In this document: positions 29,993 through 38,910 of the stretch, piece after piece
Layout of the letters: every line of letters starts with the position of its first letter
How positions within the stretch are numbered: the first letter of the stretch is position 1
Origin: Frankia nepalensis
GTDB taxonomy: Bacteria > Actinomycetota > Actinomycetes > Frankiales > Frankiaceae
Length of the DNA: 41,972 nt
Assembly (NCBI RefSeq): GCF_016786325.1
Contig: NZ_JADWYU010000153.1
Location: 1-41,972, forward strand
Reading direction: 5' to 3'
Notes under the pieces: model-generated
The model's database searches: none
What the model was told of the DNA's origin: nothing
Seen by the model: the letters and a program-made list of their open reading frames with translations, nothing else
Program-made: the position numbers and the translations under genes

Positions 29993-30121
29993 AACCCACG
30001 GGTCTACCCCATCGGCCGCGCACTGTCGCACTTTCGTCACGGCCGGCTGGCGGTGCCTCTCGTCTTCCCCGCGATGCCATGACGAGTGAGTGCGGTCGGT
30101 CGTCGGCGATCGGTCGTCGCG

Positions 30122-30207
30122 GGTGGCGGTCGGCGCGACGCGACCCGATGGTTAGTGATCGGTGGCCAATGGCCAATGGCCAATGGCCGGTGGCGGTCGG
30201 CGCGACG
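30122..30207. repeat. Direct repeats in the leader of the Rieske oxygenase gene
   Basis: GGTGGCGGTCGGCGCGACG occurs exactly twice (30122-30140 and 30189-30207). Between them are three tandem copies of the heptamer GGCCAAT (30164-30184) plus a partial fourth. It may be a slippage product or a regulator-binding array. No gene is apparent in 29993-30286 otherwise. Confidence 0.65.
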
Positions 30208-30286
30208 CCGTCGGCGGCCCGGCGTCTCGCCGGGGCTGTTGCTCGGGGGCAACACCGGCGCAACGGGGCTCGCCTACGGTCCGTTG

Positions 30287-31528
30287 GTGACCATCGTCGA
30301 TCCCGCTCCCCTGGCTGACCTGCTCGGTTACGTCGGCGCGGCCACGCCGATCACGACGGCGCCGCCCGTGTCCGCGCCGTCAGCCGTCCCGTCCGAGCCC
30401 GCGAGCCCCGACGGCCAGCCGGCCGGCGCCGGCCGCGGCGGCGCTGTCAACAGCGTGGTCAACGCCGTATGGGCGACGGGCGGCTCGGCGGCCACGGACC
30501 GCGACGCCGCGCTGGACGCCGCCTTCCTCGCCGCCTCGGCGCGGTACTGGCACCCGGTCGCGCGCGCGGCGGACGTCGGCGCCGCCCCGGTCCGCGCCGA
30601 GCTCTGCGACGTCCCGCTCGTCCTGTGGCGCCGGCCGGCGTCCGCCCCGGGCGGCGCGGCCGGCACCGTCGCCGCGCTGGTCGACCGCTGCCCGCACCGG
30701 AGCGTGCCGCTGTCGGGCGGCCAGGTCGACGCCGACGGCCGGGTCCGCTGTCCGTACCATTCGTGGGCGTTCGACGGCGCCGGCGCCTGCGTCGACATTC
30801 CGCAGCAGCCCGGTCAGAAGATCCCGGATCTGATCGCCGCGCGGCCGGTGCGGGTGGCCGAGGCGGCCGGGCTGGTCTGGGCCTGCCTGGCCGACGAGGC
30901 GGACGAGGCCCGCCCCCGCCCGCGTTTCGGTGAGATCGAGGACCTGGCCTGGCCGCACTACGTCGGCACCGTCCAGAACTGGAACGGCCAGGCGGCCCGC
31001 CAGGTCGAGAACTTCTGCGACATCGGCCATTTCTCGGTGCTGCACACCGACACGTTCGGCAACGACGAGGTCCTGGCCGTCGACCCGTACCCGGTCCGCC
31101 GGACCGAGTGGACCGTCGAGGCGGACTACCGCTACCCAAGCGTCAACCCAGTCGCCGAACCCGGCCCCGACGGGCGCCGCCCGGTCGGCGAGACCGCCTT
31201 CCAATACCGCATCGAGCTGCCGTTCGCGGTCTGGCTCGGCGGCGCGACCGGCCCCAGCACCGTCCTGTTCTCCGTCTGCGCCCCGACGTCGGCGACGACC
31301 CTGCGGCTGTACTGGATGGCCGCCTTCGACCCGGCCGTCTACGGCGACGGCCCGGTGGACGGCGTGGGGCTGCAGGCAGTGGAAGATCGCATCTGGGCGC
31401 CCGACAAGGTGATCGTCGAGTCCCAGCGCCCAGCCCGCGTGTTCGCCGCCGACGAGATACACCGCGCCTTCGACGCGCTCGGCGTCGCCTACCGCAAGGC
31501 ACTACGCGAACTCGGCTTCGCCGGCTGA
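30287..31528 (+). CDS. Rieske non-heme iron oxygenase, alpha-subunit type
   Basis: The product is about 413 residues. The Rieske [2Fe-2S] cluster ligands are CPHRSVPLSGGQ (Cys135, His137) and CPYHSW (Cys155, His158). The catalytic iron site is ENFCDIGHFSVLH, with the His248/His253 pair and acidic residues nearby, in the E-N-x-x-D-x-x-H-x4-H arrangement of vanillate-demethylase/ketosteroid-hydroxylase type oxygenases. These enzymes hydroxylate or O-demethylate aromatic or sterol-like substrates using electrons from a separate reductase, which is not encoded here. The GTG 30287 start is my best choice; the upstream in-frame extension is repeat-derived, and residues 20-70 are low-complexity even so, so a later start is possible. 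Confidence 0.87.
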   Translation: MTIVDPAPLADLLGYVGAATPITTAPPVSAPSAVPSEPASPDGQPAGAGRGGAVNSVVNAVWATGGSAATDRDAALDAAFLAASARYWHPVARAADVGAAPVRAELCDVPLVLWRRPASAPGGAAGTVAALVDRCPHRSVPLSGGQVDADGRVRCPYHSWAFDGAGACVDIPQQPGQKIPDLIAARPVRVAEAAGLVWACLADEADEARPRPRFGEIEDLAWPHYVGTVQNWNGQAARQVENFCDIGHFSVLHTDTFGNDEVLAVDPYPVRRTEWTVEADYRYPSVNPVAEPGPDGRRPVGETAFQYRIELPFAVWLGGATGPSTVLFSVCAPTSATTLRLYWMAAFDPAVYGDGPVDGVGLQAVEDRIWAPDKVIVESQRPARVFAADEIHRAFDALGVAYRKALRELGFAG

Positions 31529-31611
31529 CCCCCGCCGGACGCCTGACCCGCGCGGACCCGACCGCCAGGCCGACCGCGCCGCGCCGCGCCACCGCCACCA
31601 TCGACTGGCCG

Positions 31612-31692
31612 CATGTGATCGCCGACTGTGCCCTCGGGGGGTCGTGAAATGACCGCGTCCACGACACCCCGAGGGCACAAACCGCGATCATG
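31612..31692. repeat. Long inverted-repeat element, copy 1
   Basis: The left arm (31612-31646) and right arm (31660-31692) are imperfect reverse complements of about 33-35 nt. Both outer ends are CATG, with GTGCCCTCGGGG in the middle of each arm and a 13-nt centre. The arms match a second element at 38066-38145. It starts 84 nt after the oxygenase stop. Confidence 0.85.
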
Positions 31693-31744
31693 TCGAGCGC
31701 GGGGGCAGGGGCGTCGCCGCCGGGGACGGCGGTAGCGTCGAGGG

Positions 31745-32323
31745 GTGCATCGGCTCTCCTCGACGGTGGTGTGCGTCGTCGGGCCGGACCCGACGGCGTC
31801 GCCGGACACGGTGACGCGGTCGGTCGTCGCCCCGCTGGCCAGCGCCGCCAACGTGACCCTCGTGCTGCCGGACGACACGATGTCGCCCGGCGCCCGGGCG
31901 GCGGCGGCCTGGCGGGAGTGCCGGGGCGTCGCCACCCCGTACGTGGTGCACGACGCCGACCCGCTCGCCGAGGTCGCGGCGGCCTGGACGGCTCGCTACG
32001 ACGAGGCCGGCGCGGTCGGCGACCTGGAGGTCGCGGTCGCCGCGGCGGCCGACCGGTTCCGCCGCGGCGAGGTGGACATGCCGGACAGCCTGGTGCTGCT
32101 CGACCCGGACGGCTGGCCGCCGACCCGTCGCCACTGGTATCTGGGGGTGCTGGCCGCGGCCGCTCCCGCGCGGGTGGTGCCGGTCCGGTCCGACAGCCGC
32201 GAGCTGCGCCGCGCCCTGCGGGCCCTGCCCGCCGGCCGCTGGTGGCCCGACCCCCCGGAACGCCTGCTCGACGGCATCGACCGCGTCGTCCCCGACCGCG
32301 TGGGCCTGCCCACCCGCGGCTGA
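31745..32323 (+). CDS. Hypothetical protein, Rossmann-like N-terminus
   Basis: This 192-residue soluble protein begins with a beta-alpha-beta-like pattern (STVVCVVGPDPTASPDTVTR, VTLVLPDD). It also contains DMPDSLVLLDPDGWPPTRRH and a Trp/Pro-rich RWWPDPPERLLDGIDRVVPD end. I do not recognise the family. Codon usage and the alternation of hydrophobic and acidic stretches support a real gene over the overlapping frames on both strands. The start is GTG 31745 with a weak site. It is convergent with the GNAT gene and ends about 20 nt before it. Confidence 0.65.
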   Translation: MHRLSSTVVCVVGPDPTASPDTVTRSVVAPLASAANVTLVLPDDTMSPGARAAAAWRECRGVATPYVVHDADPLAEVAAAWTARYDEAGAVGDLEVAVAAAADRFRRGEVDMPDSLVLLDPDGWPPTRRHWYLGVLAAAAPARVVPVRSDSRELRRALRALPAGRWWPDPPERLLDGIDRVVPDRVGLPTRG

Positions 32324-32342
32324 CCGCGCCCCGCGGCTCGCT

Positions 32343-32903
32343 TCAGCGATCCACCCCCACCGGGTCCGGCGCCGGGTCCAGGAAGTCGTCGAGTGCGCGG
32401 GTGAAGACGACGCACGGCAGCCCCGGCCCGTCGTAGTCGCTGTGGGCCGAGACGCCGTCGATCACGGTGTCCCCGGGGCTGATCGCGAAACCGATGCCGG
32501 TGTGGAAGGCCACGGACAGTCGGTTGCCGGGGGTGGTGATGCAGGTGACCTGGCGGCAGCCTCGGGCGGCGACGTGCTGGAAGAAGCGCCGGTACAGGCT
32601 CGCGGCGATCCCCGTCCGGCGCGCCGCCGGGTCGACCCCGACGAAGTGGATGTAGCCGACGTCCGGCCGCGACTGCGAGACGAACCCGATGAGGAACGCG
32701 ACCAGTCGCCCGTCCCGCTCGACCAGGAAGCTGCTGTCCGCGAAGTGCTGGAAGTACAGCCGTGGCAGCAGCGACCTGCGCCGCGCCGAGCCGTGCTCTC
32801 GTTGGAAGCCGCCCCACCAGTCGTCCAGGACGGCGAGCACCCGCCGATGGTCTTCAGGGGTGGGGCGCCGCGTCGTCAGGTCGCCGGGGGCCTCGTCTGC
32901 CAC
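32343..32903 (-). CDS. GNAT-family N-acetyltransferase
   Basis: The product is 186 residues with the GNAT acetyl-CoA signature GVDPAARRTGIAASLYRRFF, preceded by the strand GRLVAFLIGFVSQSRPDVGY and followed by NRLSVAFHTGIGFAISPGD. The N-terminus has the TRRPTPEDHRRVLAVLDDWW pattern of small actinobacterial GNATs. The substrate is undetermined. The GTG 32903 start is in an intergenic region that holds two hairpins on the other side. Confidence 0.9.
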   Translation of the reverse strand: MADEAPGDLTTRRPTPEDHRRVLAVLDDWWGGFQREHGSARRRSLLPRLYFQHFADSSFLVERDGRLVAFLIGFVSQSRPDVGYIHFVGVDPAARRTGIAASLYRRFFQHVAARGCRQVTCITTPGNRLSVAFHTGIGFAISPGDTVIDGVSAHSDYDGPGLPCVVFTRALDDFLDPAPDPVGVDR

Positions 32904-32955
32904 AATCCGACCCTGTCAAAGCCGCGGTACCGCGACCAGCGGTTTTCCGCTCTCC

Positions 32956-33035
32956 GGGCGCCGACCTCCCGTGGCGCCCGGTTCACCCGGCCTGTCCGTC
33001 AGAACGCGGCCGCGGACCGCGCTCTGACGGACAGG
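32956..33035 (-). terminator. Two consecutive hairpins downstream of the second substrate-binding-protein gene
   Basis: Hairpin A is GGGCGCC (32956-32962) with GGCGCCC (32973-32979). Hairpin B is a 19-bp stem with one mismatch (32991-33009 with 33017-33035) around a 7-nt loop. Reading the minus strand, hairpin B comes 128 nt after the stop at 33163, making it a strong terminator candidate. Confidence 0.55.
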
Positions 33036-33162
33036 TCCGGGGGCCGTGGCAATCCCGGACGGCCAGGGCCGAGGGCCGGCCGGGACCGTCGACCTGTCCG
33101 CCGATCCGCGAGCCATGGACCGCGCCACGGCGGACATTTCGCCGGCGCCGGCCGTCCGTGGT

Positions 33163-34389
33163 CTACGCGCCGGGCTCGATGACCTTCGCGGTGCCGAACT
33201 CGTACAGGTTGCCGTCCCAGTCCGCCTTGCCGTCGGTGACGTGCACGACCGAGTAGGCGGGGTTGTAGACCGAGGCGTAGGGCAGTGGGCTCTTGTCCGC
33301 GAAGCTGATCGGCGGGGTCAGGCCACCGGTGTCCACGTTGGGCATCTTCTGCAGGCCGGCGAGCACCGATGCCCTGTCAATGGTCGGCAGGGTGGCCGCC
33401 AGCTGCGCGAAGAGCTGGACGCCCAGCCAGCTGCCCAGGCTGAGCTCGTCGATCTTGCCGTCCGGCGAGTAGGCCTTCATGTCTTCGTTGAACTGCTTGC
33501 CGAACGTGGTCGAGGTGTCCCAGGCCGGTGGGAAGACGAGCCCGACGGTCAGCGGGCCGCCGGCGCCCATGGCCTCGATGTCCGCCCGGTTGAACGCGCT
33601 GCCGGCGAATGCGACGGTCTTCTTGTAGCCGGTGGAGCGCAGCGCCTTGACCGCGACGCTGGTCTGCGCGGCGAACGTCAGCCAGATGACGGCGTCGGGG
33701 TTGTCCTGCGTCACCTGCTGGGCCGGCGCGGACAGATCGGCCGTGGACGGCGCGATGCGCACGTTGTTCACGATCTCGACGCCGGCCTTGGAAAGGACGT
33801 CACCGACCGACTTGCGGATGACGTCGGCCGTCGGGATGTCGAGGGTGACCAGGCCGACCTTCTTGGCGCCGCTGGCGACGACGTCCTGGGTGAGGCCGTG
33901 GAAGCCGACGACGACCGCGCCGTTGACGTTGAAGGACAGCGGGTTGGTGAGGTCGAACTTGGAGACCGGGAACTGCCCGATGATCGGCAGCTTGGCGGCC
34001 TCGATCTGGGTCGCGGTCGCGTCGTGGTAGTTGTCCGAGCCGCCGGCGATCGCGACGATGTCCTTGTCCGCCAGGATGTCGCGGTAGCACTTCGCCGAGT
34101 CGGTGGCGTTCTGGTGGTTGTCGCAGTGCGTGAGTTCCAGCGGCCGGCCCTTGATCCCACCGCGCGCGTTGATGGCCTTCACCGCGGCGTCCGCGCCGGA
34201 GGCGTACTCCGGGTTGGTGCTGACGCCGCCGGACAGCCCCGAGATCGCCGCGATCTTGATGGGGTCGCCGCTCGGGCCGCCCGCCGTGCCCGACGACGTG
34301 TCGTCGCCGCCACCTCCGCAGGCGACGGCCAGCACGGCGAGCGACGCTAACGCCGCCGGCCCGCGCAGGAACCGCAGAGATCTGAACAT
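33163..34389 (-). CDS. Substrate-binding lipoprotein, LivK-like (second system)
   Basis: The product is 408 residues. The signal peptide has lipobox LAVAC with Cys24, a Gly/Ser linker, and then a type I periplasmic-binding fold (IKIAAISGLSGGVSTNPEYA, AVKAINARGGIKGRPLELTH, CYRDILADKDIVAIAGGSDN, GQFPVSKFDLTNP). ATG 34389 is chosen because GGGAGG lies six nt upstream; an ATG two codons earlier overlaps that site. It follows the LivF-type gene on the same strand after 79 nt and pairs functionally with the divergent fused permease/ATPase. The ligand is unknown; no CoA ligase is nearby. Confidence 0.93.
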   Translation of the reverse strand: MFRSLRFLRGPAALASLAVLAVACGGGGDDTSSGTAGGPSGDPIKIAAISGLSGGVSTNPEYASGADAAVKAINARGGIKGRPLELTHCDNHQNATDSAKCYRDILADKDIVAIAGGSDNYHDATATQIEAAKLPIIGQFPVSKFDLTNPLSFNVNGAVVVGFHGLTQDVVASGAKKVGLVTLDIPTADVIRKSVGDVLSKAGVEIVNNVRIAPSTADLSAPAQQVTQDNPDAVIWLTFAAQTSVAVKALRSTGYKKTVAFAGSAFNRADIEAMGAGGPLTVGLVFPPAWDTSTTFGKQFNEDMKAYSPDGKIDELSLGSWLGVQLFAQLAATLPTIDRASVLAGLQKMPNVDTGGLTPPISFADKSPLPYASVYNPAYSVVHVTDGKADWDGNLYEFGTAKVIEPGA

Positions 34390-34468
34390 GGTCATCCTCC
34401 CGGAGAACTAACTCGCGAAACGGCCCGAAGAAGCCCTTCAGGACCTGGAAAAGATTCAGGGAAAAGAA

Positions 34469-35161
34469 TCAGGAGAGGTAGAGCGCCGCCAGGCCGTCCA
34501 GGTCGGCCCGCCAATGGTCGGCCGGCCTTTCCTCGACGACCTCGCCGCGCCGCATGACATAGGCGCGGTCCGCGCGGTCGAGAACGGAGCGGGCATTCTG
34601 CTCGACGACGAGCACGCCGACGCCGGTGTCGGCGGTCGTCCGCACGGTGTCGAGTAGGCGCTCACGTACCAGCGGCGCGAGGCCGAGCGACAGCTCGTCG
34701 ATCAGCAGCAGCCGGGGCTTGCGCGCCAGCGCGAGCGTGAGGGCCAGCATCTGCTGCTCGCCGCCGGACAGCAGCGCGCCGCGGTGGCGGGCCCGGTCCG
34801 CGAGCGCCGGGAACAGCGCCGCCTGCTCGCCCTGGGCGCGCACCAGCCGCAGCGACTGGCGCACGGTGAGCCCGGGGAAGACGTGCCGCTCCTCCCCCAT
34901 GAACGACACCCCCTGCCGGCACCGCTTGTAGACCGGCATCCGGCCGCAGCTCGCCCCGAAGAGCAGGACCTCGCCGCCCGCGGGACGCAGGTAGCCGGCC
35001 AGCGTGCGCAGCAGCGTCGTCTTGCCGGCGCCGTTCGGGCCCAGCAGCGCGACCACCTCGCCCGGGCGGACCGTCAGGTTGACGTCGCGCAGCACCTGCA
35101 CCCGGCCGTAGCCGGCCGACAGCCCGCGCGCCTCGAGGGCTAACTCCGCCAAGTCCGCCAT
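34469..35161 (-). CDS. ABC transporter ATPase, LivF-type (second system)
   Basis: The product is 230 residues with Walker A GPNGAGKT (about 40-47), Q-loop region GEERHVFPGLTV, signature LLSGGEQQMLALTLAL, Walker B LLLIDELSLGLAP and the EQN switch. All motifs are canonical. GGAGG lies 5 nt before ATG 35161. It is the only separate ATPase of this system; its partner ATPase is the C-terminal domain of the divergently encoded fusion protein. Confidence 0.94.
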   Translation of the reverse strand: MADLAELALEARGLSAGYGRVQVLRDVNLTVRPGEVVALLGPNGAGKTTLLRTLAGYLRPAGGEVLLFGASCGRMPVYKRCRQGVSFMGEERHVFPGLTVRQSLRLVRAQGEQAALFPALADRARHRGALLSGGEQQMLALTLALARKPRLLLIDELSLGLAPLVRERLLDTVRTTADTGVGVLVVEQNARSVLDRADRAYVMRRGEVVEERPADHWRADLDGLAALYLS

Positions 35162-35177
35162 CTGGTCCTCCGGCTGG

Positions 35178-35219
35178 ATCGTCCGGGTTGCATCGTCCGG
35201 GTTGCGAGTGAGCGCTCAC
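35178..35219. promoter_or_regulatory. TetR-type palindrome next to a tandem 14-bp duplication, between divergent transporter genes
   Basis: ATCGTCCGGGTTGC occurs twice in tandem (35178-35191 and 35192-35205). It is followed by the perfect palindrome GTGAGCGCTCAC (35208-35219), a shape typical of TetR operators controlling lipid or acyl-CoA genes in actinobacteria. No TetR gene adjoins, so the regulator would act in trans. Confidence 0.6.
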
Positions 35220-35310
35220 AAGCCTACACTCGGCGGACAATAACCCGCAATGGAAAGCGAAGGACTCACTCCGGGCCTCCGCTCGCCTGAAAACATGGCT
35301 AGGGGTGCGT

Positions 35311-38025
35311 ATGGACGCACGGACCATCCTTCAGTTCGCGCTGTTAGGCCTGGGCGTCGGCGGCGTGTACGCGGTGAGTGCTGTGGGTATTGTGGCGATC
35401 CACCGAGGGTCGCGGACAATCAATCTGGCGCACGCCGGTATCGCGTTGTGGGGCGCCCTGCTGTTCTATTGGCTGCGCGACGACCACGGGTTCCCGGCCG
35501 CGGCGGCCGCCGTCGTGACGCTGGTCCTCGCGGCGCTGTTCGGCGCCGCCGTCTACCTGCTCGTCATCCGGCCGATCCGCCACCGGACCCAGCTGTCACG
35601 GATGGTCGCGACACTCGGCCTGCTCGGGCTGCTCGTCGGGCTGGCCCACAGCGTCTTCCCGAACGCGGCCCGCGTGCCCAACACCTCGCTGCCGTCCTCG
35701 GCCGCGCACCTGTTCGGCCTGACCGTGCCAACGGAGCGGATCGTCATCTTCGCGGTCGCGGTGGTGGTCGTCGGCGGGCTCGCGGCGTGGTCGGCCTGGG
35801 CCCGGCTGCCGCTGATGACCAAGGCGATGGCCGAGCACGAGTCCGCGGCCCAGGCGCTCGGCGCCTCACCGCACACCCTCGGCAGCATCAACTGGGGGCT
35901 CGGCTCGATGCTGGCGGCGGCCGCCGGCATCCTCGTCGCCCCGATCGTCGGGCAGTTCGACACCGCGATGCTCACCGTCATGGCCTTCGCGCTCGCGGCC
36001 GCGCTCGTCGGCCGCTTCGACGGCTACCTGCCGGCGCTCGGCGGCGGGCTCGCGCTCGGCGTCGGCGAGGGCGTCGTCACCCACCTGGTCGCCGAGCACG
36101 TGCCGGAGCGCTTCCAGATCGGCTGGCCGCAGACAGTCCCGTTCGTCGCCGTCATGGCGATCCTGATCCTGCGGCGCGACCAGGCCAGCAACCGGCTGCC
36201 CGCGGTGCCCGCCGCGCCGGTCGCGGCCGGCCTGTTCCGCCCGATCCCGCTCGCGGTCGCGTTCGCGGGGATCGTCGCGATCCTCGCGACTGGCGACGCG
36301 AAGTGGCGCGACGCCGCGATCACGACCGTCATCGTCGCGATCCTGGTGCTGTCGCTGGTCGTGCTCATCGGGTACGCCAACCAGATCAGCCTCGCCCAGC
36401 TGACCGTCGCCGGGCTCGGCGCCTACGTGGCCGTGCGGCTCGACATCGGCGCGCACGTGCCGTTCCTGCTGGCGCCGCTCGTGGGCGCGGCCGTCGGTGC
36501 GCTGGCGGGCCTGCTCGTCGGGCTGCCCGCGCTGCGGGTGCGCGGCGTCAACCTCGCGATCCTCACGATGGGCATGGCGGTCGCCGTGTCCGGTGTGCTC
36601 TTCGACAGCACGCACTACACGGGCGGCATCACCGGCATGCAGCCGCGGCTGCCCGCCGTGTTCGGCCTCGACGTCGACGCGGCCACCCATCCCGACCGGT
36701 ACGGGTACTACTGCCTGTTCTGGCTGCTGCTGGCGGGGGCCGCGGTCGCCGCGGTCCGGCGCTCGGGTCTCGGGCGGCGGCTGCTCGTCGTGCGCACGAA
36801 CGAGCGGGCCGCGGCCTCGGTCGGCATCAGCGTCGCGCGGGCCAAGCTGTCCGCGTTCGTGATCTCGTCGGCGCTCGCCGGCATGGCCGGCGTGCTGCTG
36901 GCGTTTCGCAGCTCGTCGGTCACGTTCACGCAGTTCTCGTTCATCGAGTCGATCAACCTGGTCAGCCTGGCCGTGATCGCCGGCGTGACGTCGATCTCCG
37001 GCGGCCTGCTCGGCGGCGTCCTCGCGTTCGGCGGCCTGGTCTACCTGGCGATCTCCGAGCTGCACGTCGGCTTCATCGCCGAGAACTACGCGACGATCTT
37101 CGGCGCCGCCCTGGTGCTCACCGTGATCGTCCACGAGAACGGCGTCGCCTGGCGCAAGCGCTCCCAGTACGACCCGGCGCCGCTGCCCACCGGCGACGTG
37201 CCGGCCCGGGCCGGCGAGCCGCTCGTCGCCGACGACGTGACGGTGCGCTTCGGCGGGGTCACCGCCGTGTCGGGCGCCCGGCTGCGGGCCGCGCCCGGCG
37301 AGGTGACCGGGCTCGTCGGGCCCAACGGCGCCGGCAAGACGACGCTGCTCGACGCGATCGGCGGCTTCGCGCCGACGACGGGCGGCCAGGTGCTGCTCGG
37401 CGAGTGGCCGCTGCACGGCCGGGCGCCCGACGCCAGGGCGCGCCACGGCCTCGGCCGCGTCTTCCAGGCCGGCGAGCTGTTCGAGGACCTCACCGTCGCG
37501 CAGAACCTGCGGGTGGCGGCCGAGAACGCCGGCCGCACCGACGGCCGGCTCCCCGAGCCGGCGCGGGCGGCGCTCGAGCGGTTCGGCCTCGCCGACGACC
37601 TGTTGCGCCTGCCCACCGAGCTGCCGATGGCCAAGCGGCGGCTCGTCGGCATCGCGCGCGCCCTGGCCGCCAACCCGGCGGCCGTCCTGCTCGACGAGCC
37701 CGGCGCCGGCCTGTCGATCACGGAGATCACCGAGCTCGCCGCCGGCCTGCGCGACCTCGCCCACGGCACCGGCCTGACCGTGCTCGTCGTCGACCACGAC
37801 ATGGCGCTGGTCATGTCGGCCTGCGACCGCATCGTCGTCCTCCACCAAGGCCAGGTGCTCGCCGACGGCACCCCCGCCGAGATCCAGGCCAACCCGGCCG
37901 TCCGCGAGGCCTACCTCGGCGAACCGACCGAACTCGCCACCGCGCCGGCAGGTTCGCCGGCCACCGCGCCGGCCACGGCCAGCGAGCCGGCGACCCCACG
38001 GCTCACCGAGGCCACCAACGACTAA
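35311..38025 (+). CDS. LivH-LivM-LivG triple-fusion ABC transporter protein
   Basis: The product is about 904 residues. Residues 1-290 are a LivH-type permease (LLGLGVGGVYAVSAVGIVAI, IGQFDTAMLTVMAFALAAAL-like region), and 300-620 a LivM-type permease (LVVLIGYANQISLAQLTVAG, GLPALRVRGVNLAILTMGMA, TSISGGLLGGVLAFGGLVYL). Residues about 640-880 are a LivG-type ATPase with Walker A GPNGAGKT (about 670), Walker B VLLDEPGAGLS and H-loop VVDHDMALV. The ABC signature is degenerate: LPMAK (about 771) instead of LSGGQ. It ends with an Ala/Pro/Thr tail. AGGGG lies 5 nt before ATG 35311; a GTG two codons earlier is the alternative. It is divergent from the LivF-type and LivK-type genes of the same system. 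Confidence 0.92.
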   Translation: MDARTILQFALLGLGVGGVYAVSAVGIVAIHRGSRTINLAHAGIALWGALLFYWLRDDHGFPAAAAAVVTLVLAALFGAAVYLLVIRPIRHRTQLSRMVATLGLLGLLVGLAHSVFPNAARVPNTSLPSSAAHLFGLTVPTERIVIFAVAVVVVGGLAAWSAWARLPLMTKAMAEHESAAQALGASPHTLGSINWGLGSMLAAAAGILVAPIVGQFDTAMLTVMAFALAAALVGRFDGYLPALGGGLALGVGEGVVTHLVAEHVPERFQIGWPQTVPFVAVMAILILRRDQASNRLPAVPAAPVAAGLFRPIPLAVAFAGIVAILATGDAKWRDAAITTVIVAILVLSLVVLIGYANQISLAQLTVAGLGAYVAVRLDIGAHVPFLLAPLVGAAVGALAGLLVGLPALRVRGVNLAILTMGMAVAVSGVLFDSTHYTGGITGMQPRLPAVFGLDVDAATHPDRYGYYCLFWLLLAGAAVAAVRRSGLGRRLLVVRTNERAAASVGISVARAKLSAFVISSALAGMAGVLLAFRSSSVTFTQFSFIESINLVSLAVIAGVTSISGGLLGGVLAFGGLVYLAISELHVGFIAENYATIFGAALVLTVIVHENGVAWRKRSQYDPAPLPTGDVPARAGEPLVADDVTVRFGGVTAVSGARLRAAPGEVTGLVGPNGAGKTTLLDAIGGFAPTTGGQVLLGEWPLHGRAPDARARHGLGRVFQAGELFEDLTVAQNLRVAAENAGRTDGRLPEPARAALERFGLADDLLRLPTELPMAKRRLVGIARALAANPAAVLLDEPGAGLSITEITELAAGLRDLAHGTGLTVLVVDHDMALVMSACDRIVVLHQGQVLADGTPAEIQANPAVREAYLGEPTELATAPAGSPATAPATASEPATPRLTEATND

Positions 38026-38065
38026 CCCCGACCCCACCCGAGGCCCGCCCTGTCTCGGCACCGAA

Positions 38066-38145
38066 CATGATCGCCGTTTGTGCCCCGCGGAGGTCGCGCC
38101 CCGCCCCTTGTCCACGACCTCCCCAGGGCACAAACGGCGATCATG
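38066..38145. repeat. Long inverted-repeat element, copy 2
   Basis: The arms 38066-38098 and 38113-38145 match as reverse complements at 30 of 33 positions. Each starts CATGATCGCCGTTTGTGCCC from the outside. The right arm is closely related to the right arm of the element at 31660-31692. It starts 41 nt after the fusion-protein stop, between convergent genes. Confidence 0.9.
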
Positions 38146-38268
38146 CGTGGCAGGCGGAGCGGCGCTGGCCGCCAGCCGCGCCCTGGTGTCCAGGGGCAGC
38201 CCTCCAAAGATGACCTGCCTGGACAGGAGGGCGCGACCCCCCTCGGCTGGTCGCGGCCCCTCGGCTGG

Positions 38269-38910
38269 TCAGAGGATGCCGAGTTCGTTCGCGCGGGCGA
38301 GCGCCTCGACGCGGTTGCGGGCGCCGAGTTTCTCCAGCAGGCGCTGCAGGTAGGTCTTCACGGTGTTGCGGGTCAGGCCGAGGGCGTCGGCGATCTCGGG
38401 GTTGGTCTGGCCCATCGCGACCCGGCGGAGGATGTCGTACTCCCGGCGGGTGATCCCGCGGTCGTCGAGGGCGCGGCGGGGCGCGGCGGCGCCGTCGGCT
38501 CCGAGGTCGGCGGCGACGACCCGCTCGCCACCCACGACCTTGCGGATCACCTCCACCAGGTCGGCCCGTTCGGTGTCCTTCACGACGACGCCCCGCGCCC
38601 CGGCGGCGAGCGCGGCCTCGATCGCGACGTGGTCCGGGTAGGCCGTGAACAGGATGACCTTGAGAGACGGCGCCTCGGCGAGCAGGCCGGCCGTCGCCTC
38701 CGGGCCGAGCATGTCCGGCAGGCGCAGGTCGAGCAGGACGACGTCGGGCTGTAGCCGCGCCGCGGCCTCGATCGCGTGCCGGCCGGTGCGGGCGTAGCCG
38801 ACGATCTCCAGCCACGGGGTGCGCCGCAGCGCGAGGGTGACGCCGTCGAGGACGATCGGGTGGTCGTCGGCGACGAGCACCCGCACCGTCCGGGGCGACG
38901 CCGCGTTCAC
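38269..38910 (-). CDS. NarL/FixJ-family response regulator
   Basis: The product is 213 residues. The receiver domain (9-125) has the acidic pair Asp15/Asp16, phosphoacceptor Asp61 (VVLLDLRLPD) and Lys111 (VVVKD). The LuxR-type helix-turn-helix at about 150-210 reads DILRRVAMGQTNPEIADALG and TRNTVKTYLQRLLEKLGARN. It acts as the output of the histidine kinase encoded immediately upstream, whose stop overlaps its GTG start by 4 nt (GTGA). Confidence 0.94.
   Translation of the reverse strand: MNAASPRTVRVLVADDHPIVLDGVTLALRRTPWLEIVGYARTGRHAIEAAARLQPDVVLLDLRLPDMLGPEATAGLLAEAPSLKVILFTAYPDHVAIEAALAAGARGVVVKDTERADLVEVIRKVVGGERVVAADLGADGAAAPRRALDDRGITRREYDILRRVAMGQTNPEIADALGLTRNTVKTYLQRLLEKLGARNRVEALARANELGIL

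Follow-up and report, generated by a model that had tools for sequence, protein, structure and literature searches.

This study concerns a 41,972-nt contig of Frankia nepalensis (assembly GCF_016786325.1, contig NZ_JADWYU010000153.1; hereafter the window) and two hairpin-forming repeats that it carries behind plus-strand genes. The first, element 1, is located between a gene encoding a Rieske/VanA_C-type oxygenase of 480 amino acids (30086..31528, plus strand; Pfam PF00355, E 1.6e-20, and PF19112, E 2.7e-13) and the next plus-strand gene. The second, element 2, follows the gene of a 906-amino-acid branched-chain amino-acid ABC transporter permease-ATPase fusion (35305..38025, plus strand; Pfam PF02653, PF00005, and PF12399) and is followed by a convergent gene for a LuxR-type response regulator (38269..38910, minus strand; Pfam PF00072 and PF00196). 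As detailed below, each hairpin is very probably the core of an ancient, decayed copy of a non-autonomous mini-transposon of the IS630 type, i.e., a miniature inverted-repeat transposable element (MITE).

An earlier note on this DNA had described the repeats as ~80-bp units at 31612-31692 and 38066-38145, each 40-85 nt downstream of a plus-strand gene. Both near-palindromes are present, and the upstream open reading frames (ORFs) end at 31528 and 38025, i.e., 84 nt and 41 nt before elements 1 and 2. A repeat search placed the arms of element 1 at 31616-31646 and 31660-31690 (31 nt, 87% complementary, 13-nt loop) and those of element 2 at 38066-38096 and 38115-38145 (31 nt, 94% complementary, 18-nt loop). 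As direct repeats, the right arms of the two elements agree at 89% and the left arms at 75%. Folded as RNA from the plus and minus strands, element 1 reaches -52.6 and -54.9 kcal/mol (z -8.6 and -7.5) and element 2 -54.9 and -67.6 kcal/mol (z -9.8 and -11.2), with none of 200 dinucleotide shuffles being as stable. As a correction to the start sequence given in the note, copy 1 begins CATGTGATC and not CATGATC.

The boundaries of an ~80-bp unit proved too narrow. Alignment to the family consensus described below extends element 1 to approximately 31580..31735 on the minus strand, as a decayed copy of ~152 bp with both terminal repeats eroded; its extent and orientation are uncertain, the minus strand aligning with a score of 133.5 and the plus strand with one of 119.0. 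Its 75-nt core palindrome (31616..31690, minus strand), delimited by arm search, core extraction and alignment, and folding, was picked up by the arm pattern as well as by a covariance model (31616-31690, E 1.1e-19), and it is absent among the 73 blastn matches of a well-preserved copy (query L030). Element 2, likewise decayed, spans 38022..38186 on the plus strand (alignment score 174.5), with a core of 76 nt delimited in the same way (38068..38143, plus strand). It is matched by L030 with 83% identity over 38045-38155 (blastn, E 3.5e-25) and by five other copies of the same genome with 77-83% identity, the matches starting at 37982-38045 and ending at 38153-38158. Since the true ends lie ~40 nt outside the hairpin and a duplication would comprise at most 4 bases (CTAG), no target duplication was visible next to the hairpins themselves.

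Copies, terminal repeats, and element types

The arm pattern TGATCGCNNNTTGTGCCC, searched with at most 1 mismatch, gave 46+41 matches in the 10.73-Mb genome to which the window belongs, compared to 0+0 for the reversed pattern. This genome contains 43 intact cores in addition to interrupted ones. A local duplication or coincidence limited to the window is practically out of the question given these 87 arm matches and the covariance-model matches in all 8 genomes of the genus that were analyzed (G000, the genome of the window, to G007). The genome-wide search with the arm consensus thus refutes it, and the dispersed, MITE-like family proposed in the earlier note is borne out by the number of copies, shared terminal repeats, matching IS630-type insertion sequences (ISs), and an empty site.

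A well-preserved copy measures ~152 bp and consists of terminal repeats of ~28 nt, CTAGTGCC-N10-ANGTTCGCCC, flanking the 75-nt core, which begins TGATCGCC and ends GGCGATCA; the two spacers between core and terminal repeats differ in length (~16 and ~9 nt). In line with this architecture, the similarity between projected copies in full-length alignments extends beyond the hairpin by ~42 nt on one side and ~35 nt on the other, with its outer limits at CT followed by AGTGCCGGCCCCGCCAAGGTTCGCCC and at a repeat of the form CTAGTGCCGCGACCGCCAACGTTGGCC. In many copies, one arm carries TTTCTGCCC and the opposite arm ATAGTGCCC, which creates a mispaired patch within the stem; the window copies are better paired at this patch.

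A first search for the ends returned 62+54 matches compared to 37+33 for the control, and many of these matches are therefore due to chance. The generalized end motif CTAGTGCCN10ANGTTCGCCC (at most 2 mismatches, forward and reverse) gave 33+27 matches in the window's own genome compared to 0+2 for the control, and it clearly exceeded the control in G001 (13 vs 4), G002 (21 vs 2), G005 (24 vs 4), and G006 (46 vs 2) as well. An end that deviates from the terminal repeat at no more than 5 positions is present in 20 of the 43 own-genome copies; L202, one of these 20, was fetched via the end motif.

Furthermore, the same outer repeats enclose different palindromic centers. Within the own genome, type B (174 bp; G000:C99:14671-14844, corresponding to L181 3672-3845) and type C (238 bp; C55:17686-17923, corresponding to L193 2187-2424) have the ends CTAGTGCC...GTTCGCCC and unrelated centers. 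Elements of ~150 bp with the same ends also occur in other species, with cores that are either related or unrelated.

Some observations adjoin this inventory. The window contains two further GC-rich hairpins at 32986-33152 (arms 32986-33009/33017-33040 and 33074-33115/33116-33157), of which approximately 33095-33152 aligns locally, on the minus strand, to the type-B core; where G001 and G002 resemble the window at the following gene, the similarity sets in directly behind these hairpins. A type-A element on C88 (L035 2741-3092) is interrupted by an insert of ~210 bp. Five cores are broken near the middle of the hairpin (L063 on C85, 1-113; L064 on C157, 1-115; L052 on C286, 1-116; L065 on C316, 3929-4038; and L181 on C99, 1440-1587), and each break gives way to foreign ends of two related forms, ...GGTCCTCGCAACACC and ...GGTGCTCGCAACACC; of the five loci, four lie at contig edges, and the one on C99 leads into a reading frame with a helix-turn-helix domain (PF13384, below cut-off). 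The breaks have the appearance of insertion sequences with a preference for the apex of the hairpin. At the Rfam gathering score, no match was obtained across the window or at the elements in L026, L193, L181, and L242. Elsewhere in L193 (4150-4445), RF02514 (5' ureB sRNA) was matched with 70 bits compared to a gathering score of 40, which may merely reflect the urease coding sequence.

A likely partner transposase and the CTAG target

The IS630-type DDE domain PF13358 was found in 6 of the 8 genus genomes. In the own genome, locus L246 encodes a 388-amino-acid ORF that is recognized as an IS630 family transposase (NF033545, 168 bits, cut-off 100), and the ends of this IS, CTAGTGCGCTGTCCACGAAGGTTGGCC / CTAGTGCGCTGACCACGAACGTTCACC (CTAGTGCGCTGACCACGAACGTTC), have a register identical to that of the mini-elements; L246 and L295 share the related end CTAGTGCGCTG. 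An inverted-repeat scan of 26 IS630 loci from the genus (L279-L304) revealed (CT)AGTG ends in 13 of them, corresponding to 8 distinct elements, with L301 being counted via its second-ranked repeat pair. For the remaining loci, L279 has different ends, and 12, many of which lie near a contig end, yielded pairs no better than chance.

Three loci have the end GTGCCGC(T/A)TCAGGCAACGT in common with the mini-elements. In L305 (G005), the C-terminal 78 amino acids of a transposase run into CTGGTGCCGCTTCAGGCAACGTTGGCCC. L312 (G006) is a decayed IS of ~1.2 kb with the probable left end CTAGTGCCGCAGTTGACATGG and the last readable bases GGGCGAACGTTGCCTGATGCG at a contig edge. In the own genome, a transposase remnant of 20 amino acids (85% identity) was found beside GAGTGCCGCTTCAGGCAACGTC (L197). 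Terminal repeats are therefore shared with an IS630-family element in the well-preserved copies, the ends of the window copies being eroded.

Sites without the element were sought across the genus with five out of 21 joined flank pairs. The flanks of L026 (own genome, C19) correspond to an uninterrupted 343-nt match with 90% identity in G003 (L321), where the empty site reads CGCTACTAGCCGG compared to CGCTACT-AGCGCC...GGGACT-GGCCGG in the filled one. The target CTAG comprises the stop codon (TAG) with which the upstream reading frame ends, and this TAG is restored on the left side. For L041 (C125), counterparts at the same place read CGGCTAGGCGG in G002, CTATGCGG in G003 and G005, and TTAGGCGG in G006, and G001 and G004 gave no clean alignment across the junction; the pair of C125 and G002 provides a second site consistent with a CTAG target. 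For L056, L036, and L010, none of the matches listed outside the own genome joins both flanks at the expected spacing. Among the 42 ends located in the own genome, 12 show an exact CTAG and 16 more CCAG or CTGG, counts to be read with the search motif itself beginning with CTAG in mind. The left end of element 2 in the window would fit this target pattern, as the ABC transporter gene terminates at TAA (38023-38025) within the CTAA of this end (38022-38025).

The preference of IS630 for TA within CTAG is stated in the title of Tenzen and Ohtsubo 1991, as cited in PMC2170065, and also in PMC6811581. By this route, an IS630-family transposase supplied in trans would bind the terminal repeats, excise the element, and insert it into the TA of a CTAG, the TA being duplicated. 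At such a target, duplications of TA and of CTAG yield identical sequences; from the IS630 family, we infer that TA rather than CTAG is duplicated. Because the element starts with G and ends with C, CTAG would be restored at both ends, and a TAG stop codon that serves as the target would thus remain a stop codon. This provides a simple reason why copies located directly at gene ends may carry little cost. A general targeting of stop codons was considered and rejected: ends located with at most 7 mismatches coincide with called stop codons in 6 of 42 cases from the own genome and 1 of 22 from the others, compared to 31 of 140 CTAG sites from the same loci, element ends included. Where element ends do coincide with stop codons, this results from the target being CTAG.

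What is established is the copy number, the shared ends, the IS remnants with the same ends, and CTAG as the target, the latter from a clean empty site and a further site consistent with it; mobilization of the MITE by a cognate IS630-type transposase is what these sequences suggest.

A number of observations weigh against this interpretation. The window copies have no recognizable terminal repeats (9-12 mismatches to the repeat), and no clean empty site was obtained for them: element 2 is missing after the orthologous ABC transporter genes of G001 (86%) and G002 (82%), where the downstream sequence is not orthologous (in G001, the gene continues with GAC-CAA-CCG and stops at a TGA further on, followed by unrelated sequence), and the genes flanking element 1 are ~3 kb apart in G001, G002, G003, and G005. 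Only one fully clean empty site, L026/G003, was obtained in total, and the right end of L026 reads TGG rather than TAG. A 4-nt duplication of CTAG, as reported for MITEPsy1 (PMC3189936), would look the same as the inferred duplication of TA. The 8 genus genomes yielded cognate copies that are truncated or decayed, and no intact transposase with exact GTGCCG ends. Furthermore, the end motif falls short of the control in G003 (3 vs 7), is hardly above it in G004 (7 vs 4), and is absent from G007. Finally, for the other genomes, an end within 5 mismatches was found at 0 of the 18 core loci that had not been fetched by their ends (17 fetched through the core and 1 as an ortholog of the window); the 10 core loci fetched by the end motif in these genomes all have a recognizable end. 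IS630 ends therefore do not explain the spread of the core in the sister species.

The palindromic core

The core was examined as a module of its own. Extraction was limited to 72-83 nt with at least 20 of 28 outer pairs pairing, the orientation being chosen by the analyst, and 10 of the resulting 81 rows, palindromes with a different interior, were removed manually. The length of the remaining 71 family cores is nearly constant (64 of 75 nt, 4 of 76, 1 of 77, and 2 of 79), with diverging interiors. From the 68 cores of 75-76 nt, 66 were aligned (L016 and L038 being left out). Across 32 stem pairs, 84.2% of the cells are paired compared to 79.6% after shuffling, a percentage that is raised because the cores were selected for pairing and oriented by the analyst. 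Cells changed on both sides number 126 compared to 74.3+-5.9 in shuffled alignments, a value reached in 0 of 500 shuffles, and sliding the partner leaves no more than 51, with the caveat that kin sequences can exceed shuffles. Coarser measures of covariation are weaker, both for pairs changed on both sides (17 vs 14.0; 18/500) and for further pair types (51 vs 45.0; 11/500). The compensating changes that the earlier note had recommended looking for are thus present, and, judging from the aligned sequences, they evidently keep the stem of the core.

With the covariance model (E <=0.01), the core was matched 99, 79, at least 138, 98, 127, 41, at least 138, and 9 times in G000 to G007, respectively, where one locus can count once per strand and the values for G002 and G006 are lower bounds. 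It has largely spread without recognizable IS630 ends, since G002 has at least 69 core loci compared to 21 end-motif matches. Beyond the genus, 27 genomes of the bacterial family were covered, and 5 of them gave 1-2 matches each. Candidates for empty sites of solo cores, at L242 and L233, are several indels apart from the filled ones. The core at L242 of G006 (1501-1575) lies between a tRNA gene, which has its own hairpin-plus-T-run, and a convergent gene, and it is missing there in G002 and G004 (several indels). Other palindromes of 75-77 nt with TGATCG...CGATCA ends and unrelated interiors (e.g., GTTGCGCAGAGATAAAAG) were noticed at L280 335-410, L271 1676-1752, L277 1182-1256, and L287 3170-3244.

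The high copy number of a short palindrome, often without terminal repeats or visible duplication, and a conserved mispaired position (stem pair 13 is unpaired in 50 of 66 cores) would suit mobilization by a Y1 transposase, as in systems of repetitive extragenic palindromes (REPs) and REPINs with their REP-associated tyrosine transposase (RAYT). However, searches for the Y1/RAYT domain PF01797 were negative for 7 of the 8 genus genomes, the own genome and those richest in the core included; the single match (G007:C610:9267-9632, L328) stems from the genome with the fewest core matches. RAYT therefore does not explain the spread of the core. The REPs of the GTAG and CGTC super-families, as presented in PMC3733652, resemble the Frankia core in being dispersed extragenic palindromes of high copy number, but they measure 20-40 nt and bear a tag tetranucleotide, whereas the core comprises 75 nt and ends in TGATC without a GTAG or CGTC tag. 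A REP/REPIN system is accordingly highly improbable, and the family that the earlier note called REP- or MITE-like is not REP in the strict RAYT sense.

A different reading holds that the core is a structural element maintained by the host, such as a bidirectional terminator, an RNA-stabilizing hairpin, or a protein site, which spread through its usefulness, the IS630 ends being incidental. The near-constant length, together with divergence of the interior and compensating changes across genomes, is in keeping with it, as is the gene context in the own genome: according to gene calls from a simple ORF scorer, the copies lie between convergent genes in 12, co-directional genes in 18, and divergent genes in only 2 of 32 classifiable cases, compared to a gene-call background of 36 convergent, 78 co-directional, and 30 divergent. 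In the other genomes, however, divergent genes flank 6 of 18 classifiable copies (convergent genes 5, co-directional genes 7). These counts leave out 11 of 43 cores in the own genome (6 within a called ORF and 5 at the edge of a locus) and, of the 28 cores from the other genomes, 10 (1 within an ORF and 9 at an edge); 10 of these 28 had been fetched by their ends. For 2 of 32 at divergent sites, the binomial probability is 0.025 or 0.052 depending on the background, and Fisher tests give 0.07 against the background and 0.019 against the other genomes; the deficit is weak and confined to the own genome. Moreover, direct inspection of the window hairpins revealed no U-run after either copy on either strand. 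Given this and a gene-context skew in the own genome only, the terminator function that the earlier note had considered is not established, and a role of the core in termination or RNA stability is doubtful. None of the observations requires a function for the host.

Orthologous copies bear on the same question. Four pairs of cores from G002 and G006 are 90.7-97.3% identical, which would favor maintenance by the host, but the flanks of orthologous pairs are about equally conserved: in five pairs, the cores are 97.3, 97.3, 96.0, 90.7, and 86.7% identical compared to 75.7-95.5% for the flanks. Two pairs matched on one flank only are excluded from this range (L230/L334, core 70.7% and flank 86.9%; L269/L339, core 84.0% and flank 84.5%). 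Purifying selection on the core is thus not shown. The near absence of the family beyond the genus also argues against host maintenance, and we consider it unlikely that the core owes its spread to such a function.

Another possibility, which we put forward tentatively, is that the TGATC...GATCA core may be a separate mobile or hitch-hiking module that spreads in the genus without IS630 ends or RAYT, and that IS630-type ends may have repeatedly captured this core as well as cores that differ in sequence, giving rise to mini-transposons with exchangeable centers.

Related systems and significance

RUP, the repeat of pneumococcus, and the Correia elements of Neisseria are the closest known kinds. 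Correia elements are assigned to the IS630 type. By description, which is the basis of the comparison, both resemble the Frankia family in being short, non-coding, tightly folding, bounded by terminal repeats, and dispersed between genes. The likeness to RUP extends to a proposed IS630-family helper, its mobilization by IS630-Spn1 having been hypothesized (PMC3049150). A description of Correia elements is given in PMC10969869, without mention of IS630. In contrast to both, the Frankia family belongs to a high-GC actinobacterium, has the terminal repeat GTGCCG...GTTCGCCC, and contains a palindromic core of nearly constant length (75 nt) that is also found apart from the ends; in one genome, at least three core types share the same ends.

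Other systems share single features. IS630 of Shigella and ISY100 have in common with the Frankia family the CTAG target containing TA and the transposase family NF033545/PF13358 (PMC2170065), but they encode this transposase, whereas the mini-element encodes none. MITEPsy1 of Pseudomonas syringae, a 100-bp MITE that inserts at and duplicates CTAG or YTAA and has been tentatively linked to IS5 (PMC3189936), is likewise a short MITE at CTAG and differs in its 4-nt duplication, the IS5 link, and unrelated terminal repeats. SPRITE of pneumococcus, a terminator-like hairpin often found near gene 3' ends (PMC3049150), resembles the core as a hairpin and perhaps in this position, but has a U-rich tract that the core lacks.

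Among the matches listed for titles and abstract starts in the open-access literature, to which this search was directed (most subscription literature lies outside it), no description of the family was found. The literal end and core sequences gave listed matches only for an 8-letter end string, none of which describes the family. PMC2770080 lists IS630 transposases for Frankia genomes, and MITE and miniature do not appear in it as whole words; in the main text of PMC3733652, Frankia, actinobact, Streptomyces, and Mycobacterium have 0 occurrences.

Taken as an IS630-type MITE, the family has an ordinary mechanism with one unusual feature, namely an exchangeable palindromic core of near-constant length that is common in the genus without transposon ends. 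In the genome of the window, at least three palindromic cores lie behind identical IS630-type ends, and the presence of the core throughout the genus without such ends poses a testable puzzle. An unexplained pair of hairpins has thereby become a defined mini-transposon family with known ends, a known target, and a likely partner transposase.

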